Shown here piece by piece: positions 16,803 through 49,074 of a stretch of DNA of 64,000 nt. The notes below the pieces were generated by a model, which saw nothing but the letters and a program-made list of their open reading frames with translations, was not told where the DNA came from and made no database searches. The stretch comes from Methylococcus sp. Mc7 (GTDB lineage Bacteria; Pseudomonadota; Gammaproteobacteria; Methylococcales; Methylococcaceae), in contig NZ_CP079095.1 in assembly GCF_019285515.1 (NCBI RefSeq), positions 930,001 to 994,000 of the forward strand. Reading direction: 5' to 3'. Position 1 is the stretch's first letter. Every line of letters starts with the position of its first letter. The translations under genes were made by a program, and so were the position numbers.

Positions 16803-17285
16803 TCACATATCGTCCGAAATGACTTCCATCGCGATCAACTGTTCGCGCAAGGCCATGTGCGCAGGGAAGCCTTCCCGGCCCTGGTAGAACGGATCGCCGT
16901 AGAGGGCGTTCATCGCGGACTGGTCCGACAGGTAGACCCGGCAGCCCTCCAGCCCTTCCGCCAAGGCGGCGACGCAGGCTTCGAACTCGGAGACCGGTTC
17001 GGATTCGTAGACGCCCTCGCCCAGCAGCTCGTCGGCCCGATACAGTTCGGTGTCCCAGCCGTGCTTGTCGGCCAGCTCGAAGATCCAGCCGTGGCTGGCC
17101 CCCGCTTCGGGCGAGTCCGGCGTGAAACCGGCGGCTTCGAGCAATCCGCGCGGGGTCGCCGCGGCAAAGATCACGCGGCCTTCCCGTTCCTTGGCGGCGC
17201 GGACCTTGAGGGAAAAATCCTCCCGGTCGAATGCGAACCAGGCATTCGCCTTGCCCGGAGCGGTGACTTCGACGACATAAATCAT
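16803..17285 (-). CDS. nif-linked protein of unknown function, 160 aa
   Basis: An acidic soluble protein of 160 aa with no signal peptide or membrane segment. It starts MIYVVEVTAPGKANAWFAFD and contains blocks such as GRVIFAAATPRGLLEAAGF and GWDTELYRADELLGEGVYESEP. It lies 25 bp after the 106-aa gene and 16 bp before the 54-aa gene, all on the minus strand, so cotranscription with the nif/isc operon is likely. I do not recognise the family. Co-location suggests an accessory role in nitrogen fixation or its redox supply. Confidence 0.7.
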   Translation of the reverse strand: MIYVVEVTAPGKANAWFAFDREDFSLKVRAAKEREGRVIFAAATPRGLLEAAGFTPDSPEAGASHGWIFELADKHGWDTELYRADELLGEGVYESEPVSEFEACVAALAEGLEGCRVYLSDQSAMNALYGDPFYQGREGFPAHMALREQLIAMEVISDDM

Positions 17286-17310: not shown

Positions 17311-17631
17311 TCAATGCGTCAGGCTCGAAACGGCGGCGTCCGCGACGGCGTCGGCCCGCACCGCAAGCTTGATGTCGACGGCGCGGCTCAGCCAGCCCAG
17401 GGTCACCGCGCGGAAGGCGGCTTCTTCGGCCTCGTCCCAGATCAGGCACAGCAGCGCCTCTTCGCGGTTGAGCAGCTCGTCTTTCTCCAGTTTGTCCACG
17501 GCAACCTGGCAGGCCAGGGGGTCCGCCTCGTTGCGGGCGAATACTTCACGCGCCGCCGCGATGCCGTCGGCGATCTCGTCTTCCGACGCGAGGGCGGCGT
17601 GCTCGCCTTCGATGCTGATGATGAACGACAT
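17311..17631 (-). CDS. nif-linked protein of unknown function, 106 aa
   Basis: A small acidic, Ala/Glu-rich protein starting MSFIISIEGEHAALASEDEIADGIAAAREVFARNEADPL, all-helical by appearance, with no cysteines that would bind a cluster except C42 and C62, which are isolated. A GAGA-type ribosome binding site precedes the ATG. It stands between the repeat at 17701 and the 160-aa gene in the same direction. Function unknown; the context is the distal end of the nif-linked gene string. Confidence 0.7.
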   Translation of the reverse strand: MSFIISIEGEHAALASEDEIADGIAAAREVFARNEADPLACQVAVDKLEKDELLNREEALLCLIWDEAEEAAFRAVTLGWLSRAVDIKLAVRADAVADAAVSSLTH

Positions 17632-17700: not shown

Positions 17701-17776
17701 TCCCTCACCCCTTCCCCTCTCCCAGAGGGAGAGGGGTTCAACTCCCTTCTCCCTCTGGGAGAAGGGACGGGGATGA
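17701..17776. repeat. pyrimidine/purine palindromic repeat overlapping a coding 3' end
   Basis: Two inverted blocks, CCCCTCTCCCAGAGGGAGAGGGG and TCCCTTCTCCCTCTGGGAGAAGGGA in type, form nested hairpins (each about 8-10 bp of stem). The right block encodes the last residues of the 95-aa gene. Related sequence lies inside phnI (about 59628-59672) and next to nifW (23091-23109). Confidence 0.65.
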
Positions 17777-18025
17777 GGGCTCAAGCGATAAGGGCACACC
17801 GAAAAACCATTCCTCGCTGCCGCCCCAGGCGAGATGCAGTTGGTAGGCGGCGCGCCAACGCGCCGCCTCGGCTTCGTCGGCCGGGCGGTGGCTCAGTTCC
17901 GCCTCCGGCGCGTCGGCGGTGAAATAGGCGCGGCCGTTGCGCAGGAAGCGGGCGAGATCCTTTCGGTCGTTGGGCCGGACCACGGCCTTGGGAATATCGT
18001 TGACCAGGATCGTCGTCACCTGCAT
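17738..18025 (-). CDS. nif-linked protein of unknown function, 95 aa, C-terminus formed by a repeat
   Basis: A small protein starting MQVTTILVNDIPKAVVRPND with conserved-looking RKDLARFLRNGRAYF and YQLHLAWGGSEEWFFGVPL blocks. The final 15 or so residues (SLLPEGEGS end) are encoded by the palindromic repeat at 17701-17776, so the native stop was probably replaced when the repeat arrived. It follows the FAH-family gene by 11 bp on the same strand. Function is not recognised. Tryptophan-rich WGGSEEWFFG suggests a folded core independent of the tail. Confidence 0.65.
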   Translation of the reverse strand: MQVTTILVNDIPKAVVRPNDRKDLARFLRNGRAYFTADAPEAELSHRPADEAEAARWRAAYQLHLAWGGSEEWFFGVPLSLEPSSPSLLPEGEGS

Positions 18026-18036
18026 GGCGGCCTCCG

Positions 18037-18714
18037 CTAGCCGACGGTAATGATCAGGGGCTCCAGCCCCGCGACGGTGGCTTCGATCACATCGCCCTGG
18101 ACCACGGGACCGGCCAGGCCCGGCGTGCCGGTGTAGATGAGATCGCCGGGGAACAGCTCCATCCGGGTGGAAAGATAATGGACCGTCTCCGGCACCTTCC
18201 ACAGCATGTCGGCCACGTTGCCGCTCTGGCGGATCTCGCCGTTGACCTTGAGCTCGATCTTGCCGCTGGCGATGTTGCCGGCGTAGAACTCCGGCGTGAT
18301 CGCCGAGCACGGGGAGGAATGATCGAAGGCCTTGGCTTTCTCCCAGGGCAGGCCCTGTGCGATGGCGGCGTCGAGTGCGTCGCGCAAGGTCATGTCGAGG
18401 CCCACGGCATAGCCGAACACGTAGTCGTAATCGACCTTGTCCGCAGGAATGTTGCGGCCGCCTTTGTGCAGCGCCACCACCATTTCCACCTCGGGAAACA
18501 GTGCGCCGGTGCCGGGCGGATACGGTAGCACGGAATTGTTCTGCAGGATGGCGCCGGGCGGCTTCAGGAAGAAGCTCGGCTCGGCGGGTTTGACCGCTTC
18601 CTGGCCGGCTTCCGGATAATTGCGGGCGAGGCAAAAAATGCGGCGCACCGGAAACGGGTTGCTCGACATGGCGTCGAGGGTCACGATCGGGGCGGGTGGG
18701 AAGGCATAGTTCAT
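18037..18714 (-). CDS. fumarylacetoacetate hydrolase family protein
   Basis: A 225-aa single-domain FAH-family enzyme (YcgM-like size). These enzymes use a bound divalent metal to cleave or decarboxylate 2-oxo or acylpyruvate compounds. Visible family motifs include FCLARNYPEA near the start, the acidic metal-site block LFPEVEMVVAL (about 70-80), YVFGYAVGLDMTLRD, and GDLIYTGTPGL near the C-terminus. It lies inside the string of nif-linked genes. The substrate is unknown. A link to 2-oxoglutarate, oxaloacetate or homocitrate-related metabolites would fit the context but is inference. Confidence 0.85.
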   Translation of the reverse strand: MNYAFPPAPIVTLDAMSSNPFPVRRIFCLARNYPEAGQEAVKPAEPSFFLKPPGAILQNNSVLPYPPGTGALFPEVEMVVALHKGGRNIPADKVDYDYVFGYAVGLDMTLRDALDAAIAQGLPWEKAKAFDHSSPCSAITPEFYAGNIASGKIELKVNGEIRQSGNVADMLWKVPETVHYLSTRMELFPGDLIYTGTPGLAGPVVQGDVIEATVAGLEPLIITVG

Positions 18715-18735: not shown

Positions 18736-18987
18736 TCACACCAGCCGGTCCGGCCAGCGGTATCCGGCATCCACTTCGAATTCCAGGTAATAGATCCTGA
18801 AATGCTCTTCCATCTTTTCGGCTTCGGGAAGGCTGGTTTCCCGTTCCGGGTATTGCGCCAGCAACGCGCTGCGATGCGCGGTCCAGGCTTTCAACAGCGC
18901 CTGCCGGGCCGCCTCCGCCGTTGCACCGGCCCCCCGAAACATGAAGTGATGGGTGTTCATTTCCGCGACGACGAAGCGTTCGCCCAT
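18736..18987 (-). CDS. nif-linked protein of unknown function, 83 aa
   Basis: A small soluble protein starting MGERFVVAEMNTHHFMFRGAG, with an amphipathic helix rich in Ala (EAARQALLKAWTAHRSAL) and an aromatic C-terminus (FRIYYLEFEVDAGYRWP). Its start codon lies 1-2 bp beyond the AAA+ ATPase stop, which implies translational coupling. I recognise no family. The tight linkage makes it a candidate partner or adaptor of the ATPase. Confidence 0.7.
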   Translation of the reverse strand: MGERFVVAEMNTHHFMFRGAGATAEAARQALLKAWTAHRSALLAQYPERETSLPEAEKMEEHFRIYYLEFEVDAGYRWPDRLV

Positions 18988-18988
18988 C

Positions 18989-20692
18989 TCAGTCCCCGTC
19001 CGCCGTCCCCAGGTCCATGCCGCGGAAGATCGAGCAGCGCTTGAACACCTCCAGGCTGGGCGCGACCTGCTTGTGCGAGCAATACTTGGCCACCAGCTTG
19101 GCCAGTCCTTTGATGTCGCGCCCGGTGGCGGCGGGGAAGACGTCCGCCAGCTGGCCGATCAGCGCCTCGTCCACCGCCAGCGCGAACTGGTCTGTCATCA
19201 CCCGCCAGATCTTGCAGCGGTCGTCGCGGTCGGGCGGATAGAACTTGATCAGGGCGATGCAGCGGGAGACGATGGCCTCGTCGATGTCGTCCACCCGGTT
19301 GGTGGTCAGGAACAGCAGGCCGTTGAAGTATTCCAGCACCCGCAGGAACACGCCGACCACGGCGTTCATGGTGATGTCGTCGTCGCGGCGCTTGATGTAG
19401 ACGTCGGCCTCGTCGATCAGCATCACGGCGCCCCAGCGCTGGGCGCGGGTCAACACGTCCTTCAGCGCGCTTTCCATCGCCGCCACGCTGAGGCCGAGCT
19501 GGCCGGAATGCACCCGATACAGCGGGCGCCGGATGATCTCGGAATAGACCTCGGCGGTCAGGGTCTTGCCGACGCCCGGCGGACCGGCACAGAGCACGGT
19601 GGTACCGCCGGACTTGCCGGCGACGATGTCGTCCATCAGCACGTCCATCTCGGCGGTGAGGATGTCGATCAGGTCGGTCTGCTCCTCCGGCAGCACCAGC
19701 TTGCGCTTCAATTCCGGCTGGTAGTCGTAGGGGGCGACGTCGTCGACGTGGACCCACAGATAATGGTGCAGCTCCAGATGGAACATCAGGATGTAGGGAT
19801 GCACCGGGAGCTGGGTGAACAGCCCTTCCGGCATCGCCTCCTGCAGCTCCTGGACTTCGTCCTCGGCGTCGTAGCGGTTGCTCTTGGCGGCCTTCCGCAG
19901 GTACGGCCCCAGAATGTCGCCGGTGGCGTCCAGGGTCAGCGCACGCTGGGTGAGGATGCCTTCGTCGTTCACCAGCCGGGCGCTGCCGCCGCCGGAGGAC
20001 AGCACCACCACGTCCTTGCGCGACCAGTCGGTGTCGCGGTGGGTGGCGGCCGGGTCCTCGGCGTAGAAGCCGATGCCTCGCCCTGCGAACTGGGCGCCGT
20101 AACGGGCGCGCCAGTCGAAATAGCGGGCGACGGTCCGGTCGTAGGCCTCGATCAGCTCGGGCGTCTCCTTGAGGAATCCCTTGGCCGCGAAGATCTCGCC
20201 CACGGTCCGGCCGGCGACGTCGCTGGCGGTGATCCGCAGCGCGACGGTGGCGAGATTGCCCTTGGCGTTGGCCTTCAGCTCGATGATGATCTTGCCGATC
20301 TCGTCGTTCGATTCCGGAATGTAATCGAGCCGGGTGATGACGTAGGGCAAGGGCCGGTTGGTGACGTTGGCCGTGAACACCCAGCCGCGGACGGCATCGG
20401 TCGCGAGATAGCGGGCGATGGCGGGCACCGCCTGCTCCAGTTCGTTCGCCTCGAAACGCACGCCGTCGTCGTTGAGCGCCTTCTGCAGCACGGCGATCTG
20501 CACCGCCCGCTGCTTGAGGTCCGGACCGGCTTCCTCGTACAGGTTGCGCAGGAAGTTGACCTCGGCGTTCTCCAACTGGACGAAGGCGATCTCGGCCCTG
20601 TTCCCGAACCGCAGTTGCTCCTGCAACGCCGCCAGACGCGGGAACTCGGTGACCATGGCCTCGACATAAGGTTTTTCGATCTGAAGCTTCAC
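18989..20692 (-). CDS. AAA+ ATPase of unknown target in the nif gene string
   Basis: A 567-aa protein with a roughly 330-residue N-terminal region of no recognised family and a C-terminal AAA+ module. Walker A is GPPGVGKT (about 367-374), Walker B is VMLIDEAD (about 422), a sensor-1-like LFLTTNR lies near 462, and an arginine-finger-like VSRC follows. It could be a protein-remodelling chaperone. It is flanked by bolA, grxD and an fmdB-type gene upstream and the 83-aa gene downstream, all on the same strand. Family known: AAA+ ATPases remodel proteins. Inferred: the client is a nitrogenase or cofactor-assembly component. Confidence 0.82.
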   Translation of the reverse strand: MKLQIEKPYVEAMVTEFPRLAALQEQLRFGNRAEIAFVQLENAEVNFLRNLYEEAGPDLKQRAVQIAVLQKALNDDGVRFEANELEQAVPAIARYLATDAVRGWVFTANVTNRPLPYVITRLDYIPESNDEIGKIIIELKANAKGNLATVALRITASDVAGRTVGEIFAAKGFLKETPELIEAYDRTVARYFDWRARYGAQFAGRGIGFYAEDPAATHRDTDWSRKDVVVLSSGGGSARLVNDEGILTQRALTLDATGDILGPYLRKAAKSNRYDAEDEVQELQEAMPEGLFTQLPVHPYILMFHLELHHYLWVHVDDVAPYDYQPELKRKLVLPEEQTDLIDILTAEMDVLMDDIVAGKSGGTTVLCAGPPGVGKTLTAEVYSEIIRRPLYRVHSGQLGLSVAAMESALKDVLTRAQRWGAVMLIDEADVYIKRRDDDITMNAVVGVFLRVLEYFNGLLFLTTNRVDDIDEAIVSRCIALIKFYPPDRDDRCKIWRVMTDQFALAVDEALIGQLADVFPAATGRDIKGLAKLVAKYCSHKQVAPSLEVFKRCSIFRGMDLGTADGD

Positions 20693-20725
20693 GGCACTGC
20701 CCTCGCCCGTTCGGGGTTCAATGGG

Positions 20726-20959
20726 TCATTTCAAGCGCGGACGCTCGGATGGTTTGTAATTGCTGAAATGCCCTTCCTTGGCGGCCTGGGCGCGCGCCTT
20801 CTGGATCATCCCCGGCGTCTTCATGTGGGGCGCGATCTGCGCCAGCTGCTTCTCCATGTTGCCGCTGCCGCAATGCGGGCAGACCGGCGTGTCGCTGGCC
20901 TTGATGAGCAATTCGGAAGTCTGGCCACAGTCGCGGCAGTGGAAATCGTATAACGGCAT
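20726..20959 (-). CDS. FmdB-type zinc ribbon protein
   Basis: A 77-aa protein starting MPLYDFHCRDCGQ, with two CxxC pairs (C8, C11 and C27, C30) forming a zinc ribbon as in FmdB-family putative regulators. The C-terminal half is basic and helical (IQKARAQAAKEGHF). It lies between bolA and the AAA+ ATPase with gaps of 21 and 33 bp. The family role is not settled; regulatory or metal-handling functions have been proposed. Its cotranscription suggests that it serves the same pathway as the ATPase. Confidence 0.82.
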   Translation of the reverse strand: MPLYDFHCRDCGQTSELLIKASDTPVCPHCGSGNMEKQLAQIAPHMKTPGMIQKARAQAAKEGHFSNYKPSERPRLK

Positions 20960-20980
20960 GGCTCTGGCTCCTGGTTGGGC

Positions 20981-21229
20981 TCAAGCGGAATCGGCTTGGC
21001 GGCTCCATTCCGCCGGCGTATAGACTTTCATGCTGATGGCGTGCAAGGCGCCCGTCGACAGCGGCTCGCTGACGGTGGCCAGGACCCGCTGCTGGCGCTT
21101 CACGGGGCTGAGGCCCTCGAACGCCTCGCCGATGACCACCACGGAAAAATTGCAGCCCTCGCCTTCCACCCGGACTTCGCAGCCGGGGATACCCGATTCG
21201 ATGAGGGCGCGGACTTCGGCGATTTCCAT
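20981..21229 (-). CDS. BolA/IbaG family protein
   Basis: An 82-aa protein from the ATG at 21229 with the BolA fold signature (VRVEGEGCNFSVVVIGEAFEGLSPVKRQQ, shortened here, and ALHAISMKVYTPAEW). BolA proteins pair with monothiol CGFS glutaredoxins to hold [2Fe-2S] clusters. The gene starts 5 bp after the stop of grxD, matching that partnership. The complex probably traffics or senses Fe-S clusters for the nif/isc products encoded upstream. The conserved C-terminal His in the ALHAISMKV block is a usual cluster ligand. Confidence 0.9.
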   Translation of the reverse strand: MEIAEVRALIESGIPGCEVRVEGEGCNFSVVVIGEAFEGLSPVKRQQRVLATVSEPLSTGALHAISMKVYTPAEWSRQADSA

Positions 21230-21234
21230 GGGCT

Positions 21235-21567
21235 TTAACCTTCCGCCTGGCCGGCCACGGCGGCATCGAGCATGGTCTTCAGCTCGCCGCTCGCCGAGAG
21301 TTCGCTGACGATGTCGCTGCCGCCGACCAGCTCGCCGCCGACGAAGAGCTGAGGGAAAGTCGGCCATTGCGAAACGCTCGGCAGCTTCTCGCGGATCGAG
21401 GGGGCCGCCAGGATGTTCACGTAGGCGAACGGCACGCCGGCCGCCTGCAGGCAGGACACGGCCTTGGCCGAAAAGCCGCACTGCGGCATCTCCGGCACGC
21501 CCTTCATGTAAAGAATGACCGGATGCTTGGCGATCTGGTCGCGGATGGTGTCTTCGATGGTGCTCAT
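21235..21567 (-). CDS. grxD: monothiol glutaredoxin GrxD
   Basis: A 110-aa Grx4-type glutaredoxin from the ATG at 21567. It has the CGFS active site (C30) preceded by LYMKGVPEMPQ, and the WPTFPQLFVGGELVGGSDIV block that binds glutathione. CGFS glutaredoxins carry a bridging [2Fe-2S] cluster and deliver it to apo-proteins or to BolA. Together with bolA immediately downstream it forms a cluster-trafficking pair. The earlier in-frame ATG at 21627 lies in non-conserved sequence and is not used here. The 299-bp gap upstream (21568-21866) contains only palindromes. Confidence 0.93.
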   Translation of the reverse strand: MSTIEDTIRDQIAKHPVILYMKGVPEMPQCGFSAKAVSCLQAAGVPFAYVNILAAPSIREKLPSVSQWPTFPQLFVGGELVGGSDIVSELSASGELKTMLDAAVAGQAEG

Positions 21568-21779
21568 GGCGGTGCCTCTCGAATTGGAAGAAACTGCGCC
21601 CTCGCCTCCCCGCTCCTTCAGGGACAATGCCGTTCAGTTAAGCCGTCTTTCCGGCAGGGATTGCCGGACCAATCCGCCGGGAGCGGATTGGCGCGGACCC
21701 GCAGGGTGTCGGGCAGGACAGTCCGGCATGAATCCAGGGCACACGGATGGGTCAGCCGTGACCGTCCTTGGTTCCTGGA

Positions 21780-21800
21780 CCCCGGCATTCCCTGCCGGGG
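21780..21800. repeat. intergenic palindrome between grxD and a ferredoxin gene
   Basis: CCCCGGCA and TGCCGGGG form a perfect 8-bp stem with a 5-nt loop (TTCCC). It lies in a 299-bp non-coding gap that also contains other imperfect palindromes (about 21645-21700). It probably ends or attenuates transcription of the upstream genes, or is a dispersed repeat. Confidence 0.5.
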
Positions 21801-21866
21801 TGACGAGACAATCCTTAATTCAACGATATTGCCCCAAGGGCGAAGGGCGAGAGCGAAACGCACGAT

Positions 21867-22175
21867 TTACAAGCCGGAAGCGAAGCCCAGCAGCTCGACG
21901 GTGATGTCCTCGTCGCCGGTGACTTTCGCCTGGCACGCCAGGCGCGACTTGGAGCCGACGCCGACGATCGTGTCCAGCTTGGCGTTCTCTTCGGCGCCGA
22001 TCCTGGACACGCTCTTGCGGCCGGCCTGGAGGAAGATGTGGCAGGAGCCGCACTGGGCGTTGCCGCCGCACTTGTGCATGATGGCCTCGCCGGCTTCCAT
22101 GATGAGTTCGAGCAGGGATGCGCCCTCCCGGGTCTCGATGGTTTTTCCGGAAGGCTGGATGGTCAGGATAGACAT
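21867..22175 (-). CDS. [2Fe-2S] plant-type ferredoxin
   Basis: A 102-aa ferredoxin with ligand cysteines C36, C42, C45 and C81 (KCGGNAQCGSCH, then LACQ), the adrenodoxin/plant-type arrangement. It begins MSILTIQPSGKTIE and is fully soluble. It is one of several ferredoxins in the nif region and follows the TPR-like gene by 54 bp. A role as an electron donor in cofactor assembly or to nitrogenase is likely from context. The specific partner cannot be told from sequence. Confidence 0.9.
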   Translation of the reverse strand: MSILTIQPSGKTIETREGASLLELIMEAGEAIMHKCGGNAQCGSCHIFLQAGRKSVSRIGAEENAKLDTIVGVGSKSRLACQAKVTGDEDITVELLGFASGL

Positions 22176-22229
22176 GTAACGTCCTCTTATAGTGTGTGTC
22201 TTGGGTGGTGTAAAAAATCCAAAGGTCGA

Positions 22230-22718
22230 TCAGGCGGCGCTCCCTTCCGCAAAGGCCCGGATCACGGAAGCGCCGACGCTGTCGCTCCGGTCCAGCTCGC
22301 CCAGCTTGGCCAACAGGCGCTCGCAGTCCTCCCTGTCGCCCCTGCGCAGCCGGATGAAGGCCAGCGCCTTGAGCGAGAACAGGTAGAAATGCTGGGGCGC
22401 GTCGTAGCGCTGCCAATCGACGGTGGCGGGCGTCAATGCCTCGACGTCGTTCGGAAAGCCGCCCTGCCGCGCCGCCGCTTCCAGCGCCATGCGCACGACC
22501 CGCTCGGCGTCGGCCAGGCGTCCCTTGTAGAAATAGAACTTGTACATCGAGAAATAGACCGACAAGGCCTCGGGCGCCTCGGCCTGCGCCTGCCGCAAGT
22601 AGGCTTCGGCCCGTTCGGTGTCGGCGTATGCGCTCATCGCCTGCTCCAGAAGGCCTCCCACCCGGGCGGGCACCTCGCCGGCATAGAACGAACGCATGGG
22701 ATCGGCGCCTCTATCCAT
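22230..22718 (-). CDS. TPR-like nif-linked protein
   Basis: A 162-aa all-helical protein with tetratricopeptide-like spacing: AEAYLRQAQAEAPEALSVYFSMYKFYFYKG followed by ADAERVVRMALEAAARQGG is the clearest pair, and a third helix pair (YLFSLKALAFIRLRRGDREDCERLL) follows. No signal peptide. A start at 22697 (MRSFYAGE) is an alternative. It lies between two ferredoxin genes on the same strand, 12 bp from the upstream one. TPR proteins act as interaction scaffolds; the partner here is unknown but may be one of the adjacent redox proteins. Confidence 0.75.
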   Translation of the reverse strand: MDRGADPMRSFYAGEVPARVGGLLEQAMSAYADTERAEAYLRQAQAEAPEALSVYFSMYKFYFYKGRLADAERVVRMALEAAARQGGFPNDVEALTPATVDWQRYDAPQHFYLFSLKALAFIRLRRGDREDCERLLAKLGELDRSDSVGASVIRAFAEGSAA

Positions 22719-22730
22719 CGTCGCGCCCCG

Positions 22731-23057
22731 TCAGCTCCAGAGCGCGGCCGGAGCGAGCAGCCTTTCGACCGGCAGGTCGTTCTTCAGATGCTCGTCGATG
22801 ATCTCGGCCACGTCGGCCGGGCTCACCTTGGAATACATCACGCCCTCCGGATAGACCAGGACGGTCGGCCCGAGATCGCAGGTGCCCAGGCAGCCGGTAC
22901 TGGTCAGCGCGAACTGGCCGTAGAGCTGGCCGGCCTCGAACTGCTGCATGAAGGTCTGGAACACCGCGGTGGAGCCGAGCTGGCCGCAGGAACCGCGCGG
23001 ATGGCCGGGCGGACGGGTCTGGGCGCAGACGAAGACGTGTTTACTGGGCTTTGGCAT
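22731..23057 (-). CDS. thioredoxin-like [2Fe-2S] ferredoxin
   Basis: A 108-aa protein of the thioredoxin-like ferredoxin family (related to the NuoE C-terminal fold and Azotobacter/Aquifex-type Fd). Ligand candidates are C11 and C24 (HVFVCAQTRPPGHPRGSCG) and C56 and C60 (TGCLGTCDLGP). The block LGPTVLVYPEGVMYSKVSP is typical of the family. It sits between nifW and the TPR-like gene. Such ferredoxins are often found in nif clusters; electron transfer to cofactor assembly is inferred. Confidence 0.85.
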   Translation of the reverse strand: MPKPSKHVFVCAQTRPPGHPRGSCGQLGSTAVFQTFMQQFEAGQLYGQFALTSTGCLGTCDLGPTVLVYPEGVMYSKVSPADVAEIIDEHLKNDLPVERLLAPAALWS

Positions 23058-23119: not shown

Positions 23120-23458
23120 TCAGGCCCGCTGGCCGCGGGTGGACAGGCTCGCCTTCATGCTGTCCAGCGATATGCTCTTGCCCTCCTGATCCTGGAACAC
23201 CTTGAACACCTTTTCCTGGGCCGCCGTGGACTTCACGAAGTCGTCGTGGGCCTGTTTCAGCAGCGACTTGCAGGTCGCCATGGCGGTGGCCTCGTCCATG
23301 TCGTCCGGAATCGGGCTGCGGTTCAGATACTGGTTGAAGCGCTTCAGGATGTGCAGCCGGTTGACGTGCACCACCGAGGGTTCGTACTCGACGCCGAAGA
23401 AGTCGAGGAATTCCTCGGCCGCGGAAAAACTTTGTATGCGCTGCAACACCGGATTCAT
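23120..23458 (-). CDS. nifW: nitrogenase-stabilizing protein NifW
   Basis: A 112-aa protein matching NifW: an [14 protein letters not shown] block near the start, then [16 protein letters not shown] and [27 protein letters not shown]-type helices. NifW binds the MoFe protein and is thought to protect it from oxygen or assist maturation. It lies 38 bp downstream of nifV on the same strand, a common nif order. The length is normal. The short downstream palindrome may mark an mRNA processing point. Confidence 0.92.
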
Positions 23459-23496: not shown

Positions 23497-24651
23497 TCAG
23501 CCGAACAGGCCCGGACGCGGCTGGGACGACACCGAGGTTTCGGCGTAGAACAGCTTCAGCTCGGTCTCGCTGGGCGGCCGCTTGGTCTGGCTGGCATGGA
23601 TGCGGATGCGCTTGAGCACCCGGCCGGCGTCCACCTCGCTGAGGTCGATCCCGAGCTGGCGGAAGCTCCGCTTCACCGCGTGGGTGCCGGAATGCTTGCC
23701 CAGCACCAGGCGGTGCTCGCGACCGAGGTCCTTCGGGTCCACACCCTGGTAGTTGAGGACGTTCTTGAGCAGGCCGTCGACATGGATGCCGGCTTCATGG
23801 GTGAACACCGCCTCGCCGACGATGCTCTTGTTCGCGGCCACCGGCCGGCCGGAAGCCGCCGCCACCAGCCCGGAAATCTCCGGGAAATGATCGACGGCGA
23901 TGCCGGTGTCGATGCCGTAAAGCTGGTGCAGGGCCATCACGGTTTCCTCGATGGCCGCATTCCCGGCCCGCTCGCCCAGGCCGTTGACCGTGGTGTTCAC
24001 ATGGCTCGCCCCGGCCTGCACCGCCATCAGGGTGTTGGCCGTGGCCAGCCCGAAGTCGTTGTGAGCGTGCATCTCGATTTCCAGATCGGTGCCTCCGGCC
24101 AGCCGGCGGATCCGCTCGAAGGTGGACATCGGCTCCAGCAGCCCCAGGGTATCGGCGAAGCGGATGCGCCGGGCGCCGGCTTGCTGCGCCGCCTGGGCGA
24201 CCCGCAGCATGAAGTCGGGATCGGCGCGCGATGCATCCTCGCAGCCGACACAGACTTCCATGCCGGTGTCCAACCCCAGCTTCACGAAACGCTCGATACT
24301 GGCCAGCACCCATTCGCGGGTCCGGTTCACCTTGTGGCGGAGATGGATGTCCGACACCGGGATCGACAGGTTCACCCGATCGGCCCCGCAGCCGGCGGCC
24401 GCCGCCAGATCGCGTTCGCACATCCGGCCCCAGACCATCAGCCGGGTCGGCAGCCCCAGGCCCGCGATCGCCCGGATCACCTCCTGCTCCTCGGCGCCCA
24501 TGACCGGTATGCCCACTTCCATTTCCGGCACGCCGGCCCGAGCCAGGGCATGGGCGATGGAAAGCTTTTCCTCGGCGGTGAAAGCGACCCCGGCGGTCTG
24601 CTCGCCGTCCCTGAGGGTGGTGTCGTTGATGGTGACCGTGTGCATAACCAT
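23497..24651 (-). CDS. nifV: homocitrate synthase NifV
   Basis: Condenses acetyl-CoA and 2-oxoglutarate to homocitrate, the organic ligand of FeMo-cofactor. The protein of 384 aa has the DTTLRDGEQ active-site motif at the start, HAHNDFG metal-binding residues mid-chain, and GKHSGTHAV toward the end, as in the DRE-TIM metallolyase family. The start chosen at 24651 has GAGG six bases upstream; ATG at 24645 is the next option. It follows fdx by 8 bp. NifV in place of a leucine-pathway enzyme is supported by the nif context and by the [18 protein letters not shown] block. Confidence 0.93.
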
Positions 24652-24659
24652 GGCTGACC

Positions 24660-24998
24660 TCACTTGAGTTCTTTTGCCAGATTACGGCTGTAGCGTGGCA
24701 GTTCGATGACCAGGTCGGCCTTGCTCACCACCGCCTGGCAGGCCAGGCGGGAATGCGGCTCGAGACCCCAGGCCCGGTCCAGCATGTCGTCCTCGGCGTC
24801 ATCCGACGGATTCAGCGATTCGTAACCTTCCCGCACGATGACGTGGCAGGTGGAGCAGGCACAGGCCATTTCGCAGGCATGCTCGATCTCGATCCCGCCG
24901 TGGAGCAGCGCATCGCAGATGCTCTGGCCGTAGCTCGCCTTGATGACGGCACCTTCCGGGCACAGCTCGGCATGGGGCAACACCTTGATCTGCGGCAT
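24660..24998 (-). CDS. fdx: ISC-type [2Fe-2S] ferredoxin Fdx
   Basis: A 112-aa adrenodoxin-like ferredoxin that supplies electrons during IscS/IscU cluster assembly. The ligand motif is CEMACACSTCH followed by LACQ later in the chain, and the IVREGYESLNPSDDAEDDMLD region is characteristic of ISC ferredoxins. It lies 2 bp after hscA, the standard isc order. Here it is followed by nifV instead of iscX, showing that the isc genes have been joined to nif genes. Confidence 0.93.
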   Translation of the reverse strand: MPQIKVLPHAELCPEGAVIKASYGQSICDALLHGGIEIEHACEMACACSTCHVIVREGYESLNPSDDAEDDMLDRAWGLEPHSRLACQAVVSKADLVIELPRYSRNLAKELK

Positions 24999-29839: not shown

Positions 29840-29894
29840 TGCATGTTCTCCGAGTTCGCCATGAGGATGGGCGGTTTGCCTTGCTCTCTATCTT

Positions 29895-29909
29895 GCAAAC
29901 CTCGGGCCA
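29895..29909 (-). promoter_or_regulatory. sigma-54 promoter of the iscS-nifV operon
   Basis: Read on the minus strand the site is TGGCCCGAGGTTTGC, one base from the -24/-12 consensus TGGCACGNNNNTTGC with correct GG-N10-GC spacing. It lies 56 bp before the iscS start codon. Confidence 0.8.
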
Positions 29910-29975: not shown

Positions 29976-29991
29976 TGTCTCGTTGCCGACA
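29976..29991. promoter_or_regulatory. NifA upstream activator sequence for iscS operon
   Basis: TGTCTCGTTGCCGACA fits TGT-N10-ACA exactly. It lies 67 bp upstream of the -24 element, a normal distance for NifA binding. The rest of the 29910-30171 gap shows no gene. Confidence 0.75.
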
Positions 29992-30171
29992 AGGGGCGGC
30001 CGGCCCGGCGCCCTTCCAAAGCGCCCGGCACGCAAAGAGGACCTGTATGGTACGGATTACGAAGGTTTGAGCAGGAAGGACGGGTGATGCCGGTGTTTTT
30101 GTCGGATTTGCTACAACTCGACACGATGCACCGAAACGGTGAAAGCGATGCGACGATGCTATCGCCCTGGA

Positions 30172-30217: not shown

Positions 30218-31486
30218 CTAGGCCGAAGCGCACTGCTTCTCTTCGGTCCGGTAAACCCGGTAGGGCTCGGTTTCGCCCCGGATCACCTTCGCGTCGACCA
30301 CGACCTTGACGACGTCTTCGGTGGAGGGCAACTCGTACATGGTGTCGAGCAGGGCATGCTCGACGATGGTCCGCAGGCCCCGCGCCCCGGTCTTGCGCTC
30401 CATGGCGCGCAGGGCGATGGCTCCCAGGGCCTCCGGCAGGATTTCCAGCTCGCAGCCTTCCATTTCGAACAGCCGGGCGTACTGCTTGACGAGGGCGTTT
30501 TTCGGCTCGGTCAGGATGCTGACCAGCGCCGCCTCGTCCAGCTCCTCGAGCGTCGCCACGACCGGCAGGCGGCCGATGAACTCCGGTATCAGGCCGTAAC
30601 GGATCAGGTCTTCGGCCTCGACCCCCGCCAGGACCTCCCCGAGGTCGGTGTTCTGTTCCTTGCTTTTCACTTCGGCCGAGAAGCCGATGCCGCTCTTTTC
30701 CGAACGGGAGCGTATGGTCTTGTCGAGCCCGGCGAAAGCGCCGCCGCAGATGAACAGGATGTTGGCGGTGTTGACCTGCAGGAACTCCTGCTGCGGGTGC
30801 TTGCGGCCACCTTGTGGCGGCACCGAGGCGACGGTGCCCTCCATCAGCTTGAGCAGGGCCTGCTGCACGCCTTCCCCGGACACGTCGCGGGTGATGGAGG
30901 GGCTGTCGGATTTACGCGAAATCTTGTCGATCTCGTCGATGTAGACGATCCCGTGCTCGGCCTTTTCCACGTCGTAATCGCAGGCCAGCAGGAGCTTCTG
31001 GATGATGTTCTCGACGTCCTCGCCGACGTACCCGGCTTCGGTAAGAGTGGTGGCGTCGGCGATGGTGAAGGGGACGTCCAGCACCCGCGCCAGGGTCTCC
31101 GCCAGGAGAGTCTTCCCCGAACCGGTCGGACCGATCAGGAGGACGTTGCTCTTGGCCAGCTCGACGTCGTTCTTGAAGGTCCTGGCCTTGAGGCGCTTGT
31201 AATGGTTGTACACGGCGACCGAGAGGATGCGCTTGGCTTTGTCCTGGCCGATGACGTATTCGTCCAGAATCGCCTTCATTTCCTTCGGCTTGGGCAGGCC
31301 CTCCGCGGCACCGGCCTCGCTGCCCTGCAACTCTTCGCGGATGATGTCGTTGCACAGCTCGACGCATTCGTCGCAGACGAACACGGCGGGGCCTGCGATG
31401 AGTTTCCTGACTTCGTGCTGGCTCTTGCCGCAGAACGAGCAATACAGCAGCTTGCCGGACTCTTTGTTTTTCCTGTCTTCGCTCAT
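30218..31486 (-). CDS. clpX: ATP-dependent protease ATPase ClpX (nif-linked copy)
   Basis: Hexameric AAA+ unfoldase that feeds substrates to ClpP. The 422-aa chain has the N-terminal zinc finger (C16, C19, C38, C41), Walker A GPTGSGKT at 119-126, Walker [10 protein letters not shown], and the ClpP-docking IGF loop (SGIGFSAEV). It lies in the nif gene string next to clpP, away from the usual tig-clpP-clpX-lon context. In Azotobacter vinelandii a nif-linked ClpX2 is known to control NifB and NifEN levels. A similar job here is inferred. Confidence 0.93.
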
Positions 31487-31573
31487 GGCGCTTACTCCCC
31501 TGGTTAGGAACGGTGTTTGGCTGTCACTCTCCCTTTGACTGGCAAGTTGTGCGCCAAACTGCGAGCCGGCCGC

Positions 31574-32212
31574 TCAGGCCGCGCGATTCACGAGCACTTT
31601 GTCGATCAGGCCGTATTCCACTGCGTCGTTTCCTCCCATGAAATTGTCGCGATCCGTATCGACCTGGATCTTCTCGATGGGCTGGCCGGTATGCTGCGCC
31701 AGGATCTTGTTGAGGCGTTCGCGTACCGCCAGGATCTCGCGGGCATGGATGTCGATGTCGCTGGCCTGGCCCTGGAAGCCACCCAGCGGCTGGTGGATCA
31801 TGATGCGCGAATGCGGCAGCGAATAGCGCTTGCCCGCCGCTCCCCCGGCCAGCAGCAGGGCGCCCATGCTGGCGGCCTGGCCGACGCAGAGCGTGCTGAC
31901 GTCGGGCTTGATGAACTGCATGGTGTCGTAGATCGCCAAGCCCGCCGTCACCAGCCCGCCGGGCGAATTGATGTAGAGATGGATGTCCTTGTCCGGATTC
32001 TCCGACTCCAGGAACAGCAACTGGGCGATCACGAGATTGGCCATGTAGTCCTCGACCTGGCCCACCAGGAAGATGACCCGCTCCTTCAGCAGCCGCGAAT
32101 AGATGTCGAAGGCCCGCTCGCCGCGCGCCGACTGCTCCACCACCACCGGAACCAGTCCGCCGGCGGCCCGTGTTGCGTTGTCCATGCCGTGCCTGTCCTT
32201 CATGAAGTTCAT
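31574..32212 (-). CDS. clpP: ClpP protease subunit (nif-linked copy)
   Basis: A 212-aa serine peptidase subunit that forms the degradation chamber for ClpX. Catalytic Ser115 lies in [11 protein letters not shown] and His140 in [12 protein letters not shown]; the aspartate is expected in the [10 protein letters not shown] region. It lies between apaG and clpX, within what appears to be the NifA-driven operon that starts at nifE. Whether another clpP exists elsewhere in the genome cannot be told from the window, but it is likely. Confidence 0.94.
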
Positions 32213-47050: not shown

Positions 47051-47488
47051 GTGGCTCTCGTCCACTTCTATGAAAAACCCGGCTGCGCCAACAACGCGCG
47101 CCAGAAGCGGATGCTCCGGGAGGCCGGGCACGAGCTGATCGTGCACGACCTCCTGGCGACGCCTTGGCGCACCGGGGAATTGCGGCTGTTTTTCGGCGAG
47201 CGCCCGGTGGCCGAGTGGTTCAACCGGGCGGCCCCTCGCGTCAAGTCGGGGGAGATCGTCCCGGAAACCCTGGGCGGGGAGGAAGCGCTCGCCTTGATGA
47301 TGGAAGACCGCCTGCTGATCCGGCGGCCGCTCATGCAGGTCGGAGAGCGACGCGAGGTCGGATTCGACGCCGACAGGGTGCATGCCTGGATCGGGCTGAA
47401 TCCCAGCCGAGAAACTCCCCAAACCGACCTGGAAAGCTGCCGCCGGCCTCACCCTTGCCCGCCCACTGAGGATTCCGCCGGCGGATGA
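47051..47488 (+). CDS. nifO: nitrogenase-associated protein NifO (ArsC/Spx fold)
   Basis: A 145-aa ArsC-like thioredoxin-fold protein. From a GTG start it reads VHFYEKPGCANNARQKRMLREAG, with the single catalytic-type cysteine (C12) but not the arsenate-reductase triad, and then HDLLATPWRTGELRLFFGERPVAEWFN. This matches the nitrogenase-associated ArsC subfamily (NifO). In Azotobacter NifO is linked to molybdenum distribution between nitrogenase and nitrate reductase. It overlaps the next gene by ATGA. Confidence 0.87.
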   Translation: MALVHFYEKPGCANNARQKRMLREAGHELIVHDLLATPWRTGELRLFFGERPVAEWFNRAAPRVKSGEIVPETLGGEEALALMMEDRLLIRRPLMQVGERREVGFDADRVHAWIGLNPSRETPQTDLESCRRPHPCPPTEDSAGG

Positions 47489-49074
47489 AAGACACCGATC
47501 TGCAGCGCATACTCGCCTATCACGAACGCACCAAACACCGGCTGGAACGCTACGCGGCGGGGCCTGAAACCCTGGACTGGAGCGCCCAGCCCGATCCGTT
47601 CCGGACTTTCGAAGGCGCCGACCGCATCCTGCTACCGTTGCTGGCGGACGGCCTCGATACCTCCTTTCCGGAGCTGCACCGGCCCGGTGCCGTCCCGCCG
47701 CGCGCCTTGACCCTGGATTCGGTCGGCCTCCTCCTCGAACTTTCCCTGGCCTTGTCGGCCTGGAAGGAATACGGCCCGGACCGCTGGTCTCTGCGCTGCA
47801 ATCCGTCCAGCGGCAACCTCCATCCCACCGAAGGGTATGTGGTGTGCCGGAACGTCGAGGGGTTGGGCGACGGTATCTATCATTACCTCAGCCGCGACCA
47901 TGCGCTCGAACGCCGGGCACTGGCTGCGGCCGACACCGCAGGCGGTCCGTCCCGCCTGCTGATCGGCCTCAGCTCCATCCACTGGCGGGAAGCCTGGAAA
48001 TACGGCGAGCGGGCCTTCCGTTACTGCCAGCTCGACACCGGCCACGCCGTCGGCGCCCTGCGCTATACCGCTGCCGCCCTGGGCTGGGGCCTGCGTAGGG
48101 TGGACATGGCGGACGCCAGCGCCATCGCCCGGCTGCTGGGACTCGACCGCGCGGCCGATTTTTCCGGCGCCGAAGGAGAAGAAGCGGAACTCCTGCTCGA
48201 GGTGGTCATCGGGCCGGCCGCGCCGCCGGCCCTGCCGGTGTTCGGCGACCTGGCCTGGGCCGGCAAGGCGAACGTCCTCGACCCGCACCCGATGTACCGC
48301 TGGCCCGTCATCGACGAGGTGGCCGACGCCAGCCGCTGGCCCGGCGAAGAGACCCCGCCCCCGCCCGAGGCGGATTACCCGCCCCGCGCCGATCCGCCGG
48401 CCGTCGCCGCCGCCGCGGTGATCCGCCAGCGCCGCAGCGCCCAGCGCTTCGACCGCCGGTTCGAACTGGAGAGGGCTGATTTCTACGCCCTCCTTGACGC
48501 GCTGCTGGCCCGGCCCTGCGCTCCCTGGGACGTCTGGAACCACGCACCCGCGCTGCACCCCGTCCTGTTCGTCCATCGAGTGACGGGACTGGCGCCGGGA
48601 CTGTACGCCCTGCCGCGCAGCCTGGGCGCCGAAACGAAGCTGCGCGCGGCCTTGCGGCGGGATTTCGCCTGGACGAAACCCGCAGGCTGTCCCGGACACC
48701 TGCCGTTGTTCCTGTTGGCGGAAGGCGGCTGCGGCCCGATTGCGCGCACCGTCGACTGCCATCAGGCCATCGCCGCCGACAGCGCTTTCGCCTTGGGAAT
48801 GCTGGCGGAATTCGAAGACACCCTGAGCGCCGCCCCCTGGCGCTACCGCCAGCTTCACTGGGAGGCGGGACTCCTGGGCCAGACGCTCTATCTGGAAGCC
48901 GAAGCCCGTGGTCTGCGCGGCACCGGCATCGGCTGCTATTTCGACGACGCCTTCCACGAACTGTTGGGGCTGTCCGGGAAGGCGTTCCAGTCGCTGTACC
49001 ACTTCACCGTGGGCAAGCCGCTGAGCGATCCGCGGATCACGACCGAGGCGCCCTACGCCCGAACCCCGGCCTGA
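47485..49074 (+). CDS. SagB/ThcOx-like nitroreductase-family flavoprotein with two domains
   Basis: A 529-aa protein containing two nitroreductase-fold halves. The first has the SagB-type RCNPSSGNLHPTEGYV FMN region (about 108-123); the second begins with RQRRSAQRFDRRFELERADF (about 313), a second N-terminal nitroreductase signature. Such enzymes oxidise or reduce substrates with FMN. No peptide substrate or azoline cyclase gene is nearby, so thiazole/oxazole formation is unlikely. It ends the accessory operon, coupled to nifO. The role in nitrogen fixation is unknown. Confidence 0.82.
   Translation: MKDTDLQRILAYHERTKHRLERYAAGPETLDWSAQPDPFRTFEGADRILLPLLADGLDTSFPELHRPGAVPPRALTLDSVGLLLELSLALSAWKEYGPDRWSLRCNPSSGNLHPTEGYVVCRNVEGLGDGIYHYLSRDHALERRALAAADTAGGPSRLLIGLSSIHWREAWKYGERAFRYCQLDTGHAVGALRYTAAALGWGLRRVDMADASAIARLLGLDRAADFSGAEGEEAELLLEVVIGPAAPPALPVFGDLAWAGKANVLDPHPMYRWPVIDEVADASRWPGEETPPPPEADYPPRADPPAVAAAAVIRQRRSAQRFDRRFELERADFYALLDALLARPCAPWDVWNHAPALHPVLFVHRVTGLAPGLYALPRSLGAETKLRAALRRDFAWTKPAGCPGHLPLFLLAEGGCGPIARTVDCHQAIAADSAFALGMLAEFEDTLSAAPWRYRQLHWEAGLLGQTLYLEAEARGLRGTGIGCYFDDAFHELLGLSGKAFQSLYHFTVGKPLSDPRITTEAPYARTPA

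Follow-up and report, generated by a model that had tools for sequence, protein, structure and literature searches.

What does a 567-amino-acid (aa) AAA+ ATPase do beside the nitrogen fixation genes of Methylococcus sp. Mc7? The window considered here, a 64-kb piece of the closed 4.0-Mb genome of this Methylococcus sp. (NZ_CP079095.1, positions 930,001-994,000), encodes the protein downstream of iscS, nifV and nifW, and a first-pass annotation had proposed it as the centre of a nitrogenase support system. That annotation picked out a real nif-linked ATPase, whose orthologues stand the comparison at the level of the genome and in part at the level of the gene cluster. Only a minority of the surveyed diazotrophs carry the ATPase, which we hold with high confidence to be a nif-specific accessory AAA+ protein. 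The gene and its parts are:

18989-20692, minus strand: AAA+ ATPase, 567 aa, GTG start; diazotroph-linked subfamily of the phage/plasmid family phrog_29662
19247-19597, minus strand: AAA core (residues 366-482) with Walker A GPPGVGKT, Walker B LIDEAD, TTNR and SRC
19682-20692, minus strand: N-terminal domain of the ATPase (residues 1-337), without a Pfam family

The link to nitrogen fixation is seen in the occurrence of orthologues, for which a threshold of at least 57% identity was used. Nine of 369 genomes of Gammaproteobacteria (in the GTDB sense) match the ATPase at E<=1e-25, and eight of the nine matches, the window's own genome included, are orthologues (65-100% identity). All eight carriers are among the 32 gammaproteobacterial genomes with nifD (Fisher test, P-value 1.3e-9); with the own genome excluded, seven of seven carriers have it (P-value 1.5e-8). 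The ninth match, in the nifD-negative genome G160, is a distant paralogue (46% identity over the C-terminal part, 35% in another comparison). The family of the Zoogloea metagenome-assembled genome (MAG) G400 comprises 121 genomes, 50 of which match nifD at E<=1e-50. Its 16 ATPase matches divide into 12 orthologues, with nifD in 11 of the 12 carriers (P-value 2e-4), and four distant paralogues (about 41% identity) in genomes without nifD. A wider search found 334 relatives, of which 80 named loci were examined and 50 of these were checked for nifD. The gene is over the cut-off in 44 of the 50 carriers, and four others (G385, G399, G409 and G418) have only nifD fragments or matches below the cut-off, which brings the count with weaker matches to 48. 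The two carriers without a nifD match are the MAGs L126, in which nifV and nifW lie 9-10 kb from the ATPase gene, and L104, where only a NifQ-like gene and ferredoxins are found nearby. Thus, the tie to nitrogen fixation claimed by the first-pass annotation is borne out, and a check for the result it had feared, a predominance of homologues in non-diazotrophs, gave the opposite for the orthologues.

A second line of evidence comes from the promoters. Upstream regions were collected from 88 loci (including the distant paralogue L054), 86 of them with the full 300 bases and 67 after dereplication; the controls were 577 dereplicated upstream regions of other open reading frames (ORFs), nif genes among them, from these loci. 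Within 500 bases upstream of the ATPase gene, a sigma54 site with at most one mismatch is present in 12 of the 88 loci (0.42 in shuffled sequences) and a NifA-type upstream activator sequence (UAS) in 24 of the 88 (6.2 in shuffled sequences). Over 300 bases, sigma54 sites with at most two mismatches are enriched about six-fold (25/67 vs 36/577 controls, P-value 2e-11), and the comparison for at most one mismatch gives 11/67 vs 13/577 (P-value 6e-6). The corresponding counts are 13/67 vs 38/577 for the UAS (P-value 0.001) and 5/67 vs 12/577 for a UAS properly upstream of a sigma54 site (P-value 0.02). We regard regulation of the ATPase by NifA as likely, although on the minus strand of the window the sigma54 site with a UAS that comes closest upstream of the ATPase block is about 9 kb away; the block may be read from this site:

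29894-29909, minus strand: sigma54 -24/-12-like site TGGCCCGAGGTTTGCA, upstream of iscS; NifA-type UAS at 29976-29991 and 30100-30115

A published gene of the same kind is azo3791 of Azoarcus sp. BH72, described as a "conserved hypothetical ATPase" of the NifA regulon, located outside the nif cluster and counted among the 8 genes of BH72 that have an RpoN as well as a NifA site (PMC3916325). According to the same text, 38 BH72 genes have RpoN sites, all modulated under N2 fixation, and 25 have NifA sites, all NifA-regulated (PMC3916325). The polyhydroxybutyrate (PHB)-granule gene of that paper, azo3815, is at a distance of 24 genes from azo3791. In the related genome G683, the orthologue of the window ATPase (4,238,218-4,239,897) has one of the three phasin genes of that genome about 22 kb away (at 4,261,782). 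This is in rough agreement with the azo3791-azo3815 distance, and because of this matching gene spacing azo3791 is probably an orthologue of the window ATPase. The G683 orthologue has a UAS at -157 and, about 68 bases ahead of the gene, the site TGGCACCAATTCTGCT with one mismatch; RpoN and NifA sites are thus found upstream of both genes. The expectation of the first-pass annotation that expression follows nitrogen status is thereby supported only indirectly, by the sigma54/NifA-type sites and by the published record of the probable orthologue. The open-access literature search found no paper on azo3791 other than PMC3916325; no such ATPase was seen in the accessible parts of PMC2820453 and PMC13207237, and those of PMC12727197 do not deal with it.

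The wider family reaches beyond diazotrophs. The match to phrog_29662 spans residues 63-559 (E 8e-106) and so takes in the N-terminal domain as well as the AAA part, and a tblastn comparison with the family gave 37% identity over residues 64-561. This family includes proteins of the Bacillus jumbo phages PBS1/AR9, annotated as "ATP-dependent protease" or hypothetical, and AAA+ proteins of megaplasmids. Distant homologues spanning the N-terminal domain (32-41% identity) are found in phages, on megaplasmids (plasmid matches: the best 40 of 157 records) and in nifD-negative genomes; therefore, the nif specificity holds only at the level of the subfamily. Predicted viral contigs (L168-L247) represent the best 80 of 99 relatives of the phage AR9 member, and many of them match the AAA half only. 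A tree was calculated for 109 proteins, which were left of 112 extracted ones after removal of two duplicates and a 293-aa fragment, with four plasmid proteins and five genome paralogues as the outgroup and one plasmid protein as the root; phage proteins were not in the tree. A long branch separates 100 nif-type proteins from the nine plasmid proteins and genome paralogues. The support is 0.984 for a nif-type clade of 99 members and only 0.135 for the node that adds to them L145, the most divergent member (nifD-positive). The Walker, sensor and GRDxK motifs are common to the nif-type proteins and phrog_29662; unlike their relatives, the nif-type proteins occur in diazotrophs, often with sigma54/NifA-type promoters, and 23 conserved residues are specific to their clade.

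The window ATPase, 94% identical to its counterpart in Methylococcus capsulatus Texas, is a confident match to PF00004 (62.8 bits, cut-off 21.2) and resembles motors of the FtsH/p97/Vps4 type in its AAA core (VCP-like ATPase, E 4e-14). The Walker motifs had been described as intact, and indeed nine catalytic residues in the two Walker motifs, in sensor 1 and at the arginine finger (G370, G373, G375, K376, T377, D427, E428, N465 and R477) are invariant in 50 of 50 aligned orthologues. The same 50 sequences have no F, W or Y in residues 396-410 (SGQLGL...), the expected pore loop 1, which was located by eye against known AAA motifs and placed by sequence because of the low confidence of the modelled AAA core. 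Unlike FtsH, p97 and Vps4, therefore, the protein does not exhibit the aromatic pore loop 1 of the processive threading unfoldases, and Pfam found no protease domain in it, including a zinc-protease domain. The lack of an aromatic residue at this position argues for local remodelling and against complete threading and degradation. The large N-terminal region had been reported as unassigned, and it belongs to no Pfam family, although it is conserved; its predicted fold (residues 1-337, mean pLDDT 86) has no clear match in the PDB and matches giant-virus AAA ATPases at a modest TM-score (0.36-0.41).

As a working model, we consider it likeliest that the ATPase remodels a specific client during the making or repair of nitrogenase. 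The ATPase would be made under NifA/sigma54 control, its N-terminal domain would hold the client, and the AAA ring would alter the conformation or assembly state of the client; ring formation and ATP-driven remodelling would be expected from general knowledge of AAA+ proteins. Putative clients are inactive or misassembled MoFe protein, NifEN or NifH, which would be rescued. Whether the putative client is nitrogenase or an assembly protein is a question on which we stand midway between yes and no, and we give about an even chance to the explanation as a whole, in which an ATPase controlled by NifA would remodel nitrogenase or an assembly factor. Rubisco activase is an accessory AAA+ protein that revives one specialised enzyme, and the same kind of work is proposed for the window ATPase; no membership is claimed. 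By this analogy, a diazotrophic proteobacterium might on a single occasion have acquired a motor of the jumbo-phage/megaplasmid family and brought it under NifA, after which the motor would have spread among diazotrophs as an ATP-driven "nitrogenase activase" that opens or re-matures inactive nitrogenase or its assembly scaffold, a tentative scenario that we consider rather unlikely.

Several observations weigh against this reading. Orthologues are missing from 24 of the 32 nifD-positive Gammaproteobacteria and from 39 of the 50 nifD-matching genomes of the G400 family, and since most surveyed diazotrophs lack the ATPase, it is not generally needed; in the class of Bradyrhizobium BTAi1, surveyed for the ATPase only, it was found in one of 240 genomes, which is the centre genome itself. 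The twelfth orthologue of the G400 family is a 293-aa fragment in G744, a genome without nifD. No sigma54 site with at most two mismatches was found in 42 of the 67 dereplicated loci, in the window no such site directly precedes the ATPase gene, and in L084, L096 and L107 the UAS-like motif is downstream of the site. The orthology of azo3791 has gene spacing in G683 as its sole basis, and the available text of PMC3916325, which devotes one main-text sentence to azo3791, gives no direction of its regulation and no family, function or mutant. No experiment on the ATPase was found in term searches of the open-access literature, and the AAA core in the full-length model is of low confidence. Finally, the first-pass annotation had also feared that homologues lie mostly outside nif clusters, and this is literally true: no more than 25 of the 80 stretches, which reach to about 10 kb where the contig ends permit, have a recognised nif gene (L104 counted by the NifQ-like protein alone), whereas seven have isc-type or accessory genes only and 48 have neither nif nor isc-type genes. 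Yet the genomes are those of diazotrophs, as nifD is over the cut-off in 29 of the 30 genomes checked among these 48.

The alternative that survives best places the ATPase in a layer of functions that deals with redox or oxygen stress in aerobic diazotrophs, in which it would act on oxidised or damaged proteins together with nif-linked glutathione S-transferase (GST), SagB-like nitroreductase, SelO and Rieske proteins. In a de novo clustering of ORFs from 88 loci, GST was the commonest neighbour family (32/88 loci within 8.5 kb, 22 within 3 kb; e.g. L084:8296-8913); tetratricopeptide repeat (TPR) proteins (20/88), SagB-like nitroreductases (16/88) and flavin amine oxidases (16/88) recur as well, and so do Rieske proteins and SelO, by reading of the sequences and the annotation of Methylococcus sp. 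EFPC2. GST orthologues (at least 53% identity) are present in six of eight nifD-positive genomes with the ATPase vs four of 24 without it, with a P-value of 0.005 that ignores kinship and is optimistic because related genomes are not independent. Several named carriers are aerobic methanotrophs or aerobic heterotrophs. However, the sets of neighbours vary by lineage, their strands are mixed, and the GST gene of the window genome is about 2 Mb from the ATPase gene, so that this alternative is possible and, in our view, doubtful. A SagB-family dehydrogenase is encoded near nifH in the window (47485-49074), and its relatives are found near the ATPase gene in Bradyrhizobium and Methylocystis loci.

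The genes around the ATPase gene in the window are:

16803-17285, minus strand: 160-aa protein; within 3 kb of the ATPase gene in 8/80 loci
17311-17631, minus strand: 106-aa protein; within 3 kb of the ATPase gene in 17/80 loci
17738-18040, minus strand: small protein p98 (label used here); syntenic in 5/80 loci
18037-18714, minus strand: fumarylacetoacetate-hydrolase-family protein, 225 aa; often adjoins the 83-aa gene
18736-18987, minus strand: 83-aa protein, an ORF one base from the ATPase stop
20726-20959, minus strand: FmdB-type zinc ribbon protein, 77 aa; over the family cut-off
20981-21229, minus strand: BolA-like protein, 82 aa; over the family cut-off
21235-21567, minus strand: Grx4/GrxD monothiol glutaredoxin, 110 aa; over the family cut-off, CGFS in the sequence
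21568-21866, no strand: intergenic dispersed repeat, 299 bases; matches within the genome
21867-22175, minus strand: [2Fe-2S] ferredoxin, 102 aa; over the family cut-off
22230-22718, minus strand: TPR protein, 162 aa; family match, relatives in 20/88 ATPase loci
22731-23057, minus strand: thioredoxin-like [2Fe-2S] ferredoxin, 108 aa; family match
23120-23458, minus strand: nifW; over the family cut-off
23497-24663, minus strand: nifV; over the family cut-off

The ORF check placed all ORFs of the string on the minus strand at these positions, and curated cut-offs were passed for the AAA, FmdB zinc ribbon, BolA, Grx4-type glutaredoxin, ferredoxin and NifW families; because of their length and family matches, the genes of the string are not products of chance. 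The same-strand order grxD-bolA-fmdB-type gene-ATPase-83-aa gene given by the first-pass annotation is therefore sound, including the near contact of the last two, and all genes named in its heading are present, although the heading omits the TPR protein and the [2Fe-2S] ferredoxin. Searches of Pfam, NCBIfam and PHROG gave no match for the 83-aa protein, and the 106-aa and 160-aa proteins belong to no Pfam or PHROG family. The string extends past 18736 with the fumarylacetoacetate-hydrolase gene and three small genes, an order that is kept in L055 and L056, and in L058 without the last one. The minus-strand nif set over family cut-offs comprises nifH, nifD, a NifX-associated protein, the nif-specific ferredoxin III, iscS, nifV and nifW; nifK, nifE, nifN, a NifQ-like gene (no NCBIfam match), clpP, clpX, iscU, two iscA, hscB, hscA and fdx were read from translations only. 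The genes read as clpX and clpP by translation, with no family search made (30218-32212), separate the nif genes from iscS and share their orientation. The 299-base gap matches 12 pieces in its own genome including itself, some adjacent to one another (73-100% identity), and measures 57-154 bases between match ends in five relatives; it is a dispersed repeat and no evidence of a second transcription unit. In Methylococcus sp. EFPC2 (L159; NZ_CP070492.1 53957-79642), nifL, the isc operon, nifV, nifW and the whole block are on an 89.6-kb plasmid, where an additional small gene precedes the ATPase gene and a GST gene follows the block.

A reading close to that of the first-pass annotation is a nif-dedicated unit for the trafficking of Fe-S clusters, in which Grx-BolA would pass a [2Fe-2S] cluster on, the ATPase would open or repair the receiver and the 83-aa protein would serve as an adaptor. 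It is consistent with the tight spacing of 1-33 bases on one strand from the 83-aa gene through GrxD, with the CGFS motif of GrxD, and with the recurrence of the gene order in L055, L056 and L058, on the EFPC2 plasmid, and in L061 and L064, where no 83-aa gene was recognised. Across the loci, however, the linkage of ATPase, GrxD and BolA is not conserved. With window proteins as queries, and in stretches often cut by contig ends, BolA was found within 3 kb of the ATPase gene in just seven of 80 loci (one of them, L057, with only 30% identity), GrxD in six, the FmdB zinc ribbon in 14 and the 83-aa gene in five. Most of the loci with BolA, GrxD or the 83-aa gene nearby belong to Methylococcaceae, and close GrxD-BolA linkage is seen only in this family and in one Sulfuriferula MAG (L072, downstream of the ATPase gene). 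Among the 32 nifD-positive gammaproteobacterial genomes, the 83-aa gene was found in that of the window only. Six further loci have it 3-6 kb from the ATPase gene, and in five of these it adjoins the fumarylacetoacetate-hydrolase gene. The "module" of the first-pass annotation is thus local synteny, and the small neighbours look like local companions; since the module is not conserved, the idea of cluster insertion or removal loses its main argument, and we regard the trafficking unit as improbable.

Equally improbable is a mobile-element ATPase travelling with the nif genes, with a plasmid, phage or anti-phage function and no role in nitrogen fixation, since the homology to jumbo phages PBS1/AR9 and megaplasmids over the N-terminal and AAA parts, the plasmid-borne nif region of EFPC2 and the resemblance of the AAA part to IetA/TRIP13 defence ATPases are set against a nifD link that holds without close linkage (the 29 of 30 carriers without a nif or isc-type gene in the stretch), sigma54/UAS sites upstream of the ATPase and an IteA score far under the cut-off. 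As a candidate in its own right, the IteA/IetA anti-phage ATPase was rejected: the IteA profile gave 42.9 bits vs a cut-off of 510 and the PADLOC IetA profile E 2e-14 (no cut-off given), both over the AAA part only.

Accessory Nif factors are relevant to the survival of nitrogenase in aerobic cells and to its transfer into crops and other hosts. If the preferred reading, a NifA-controlled remodeller of nitrogenase or of an assembly factor, is true, a dedicated nitrogenase AAA+ machine would be a new class of Nif factor and would account for a so far unnamed member of the NifA regulon. It would also illustrate how a motor of the phage/plasmid type can be recruited to serve a core enzyme.

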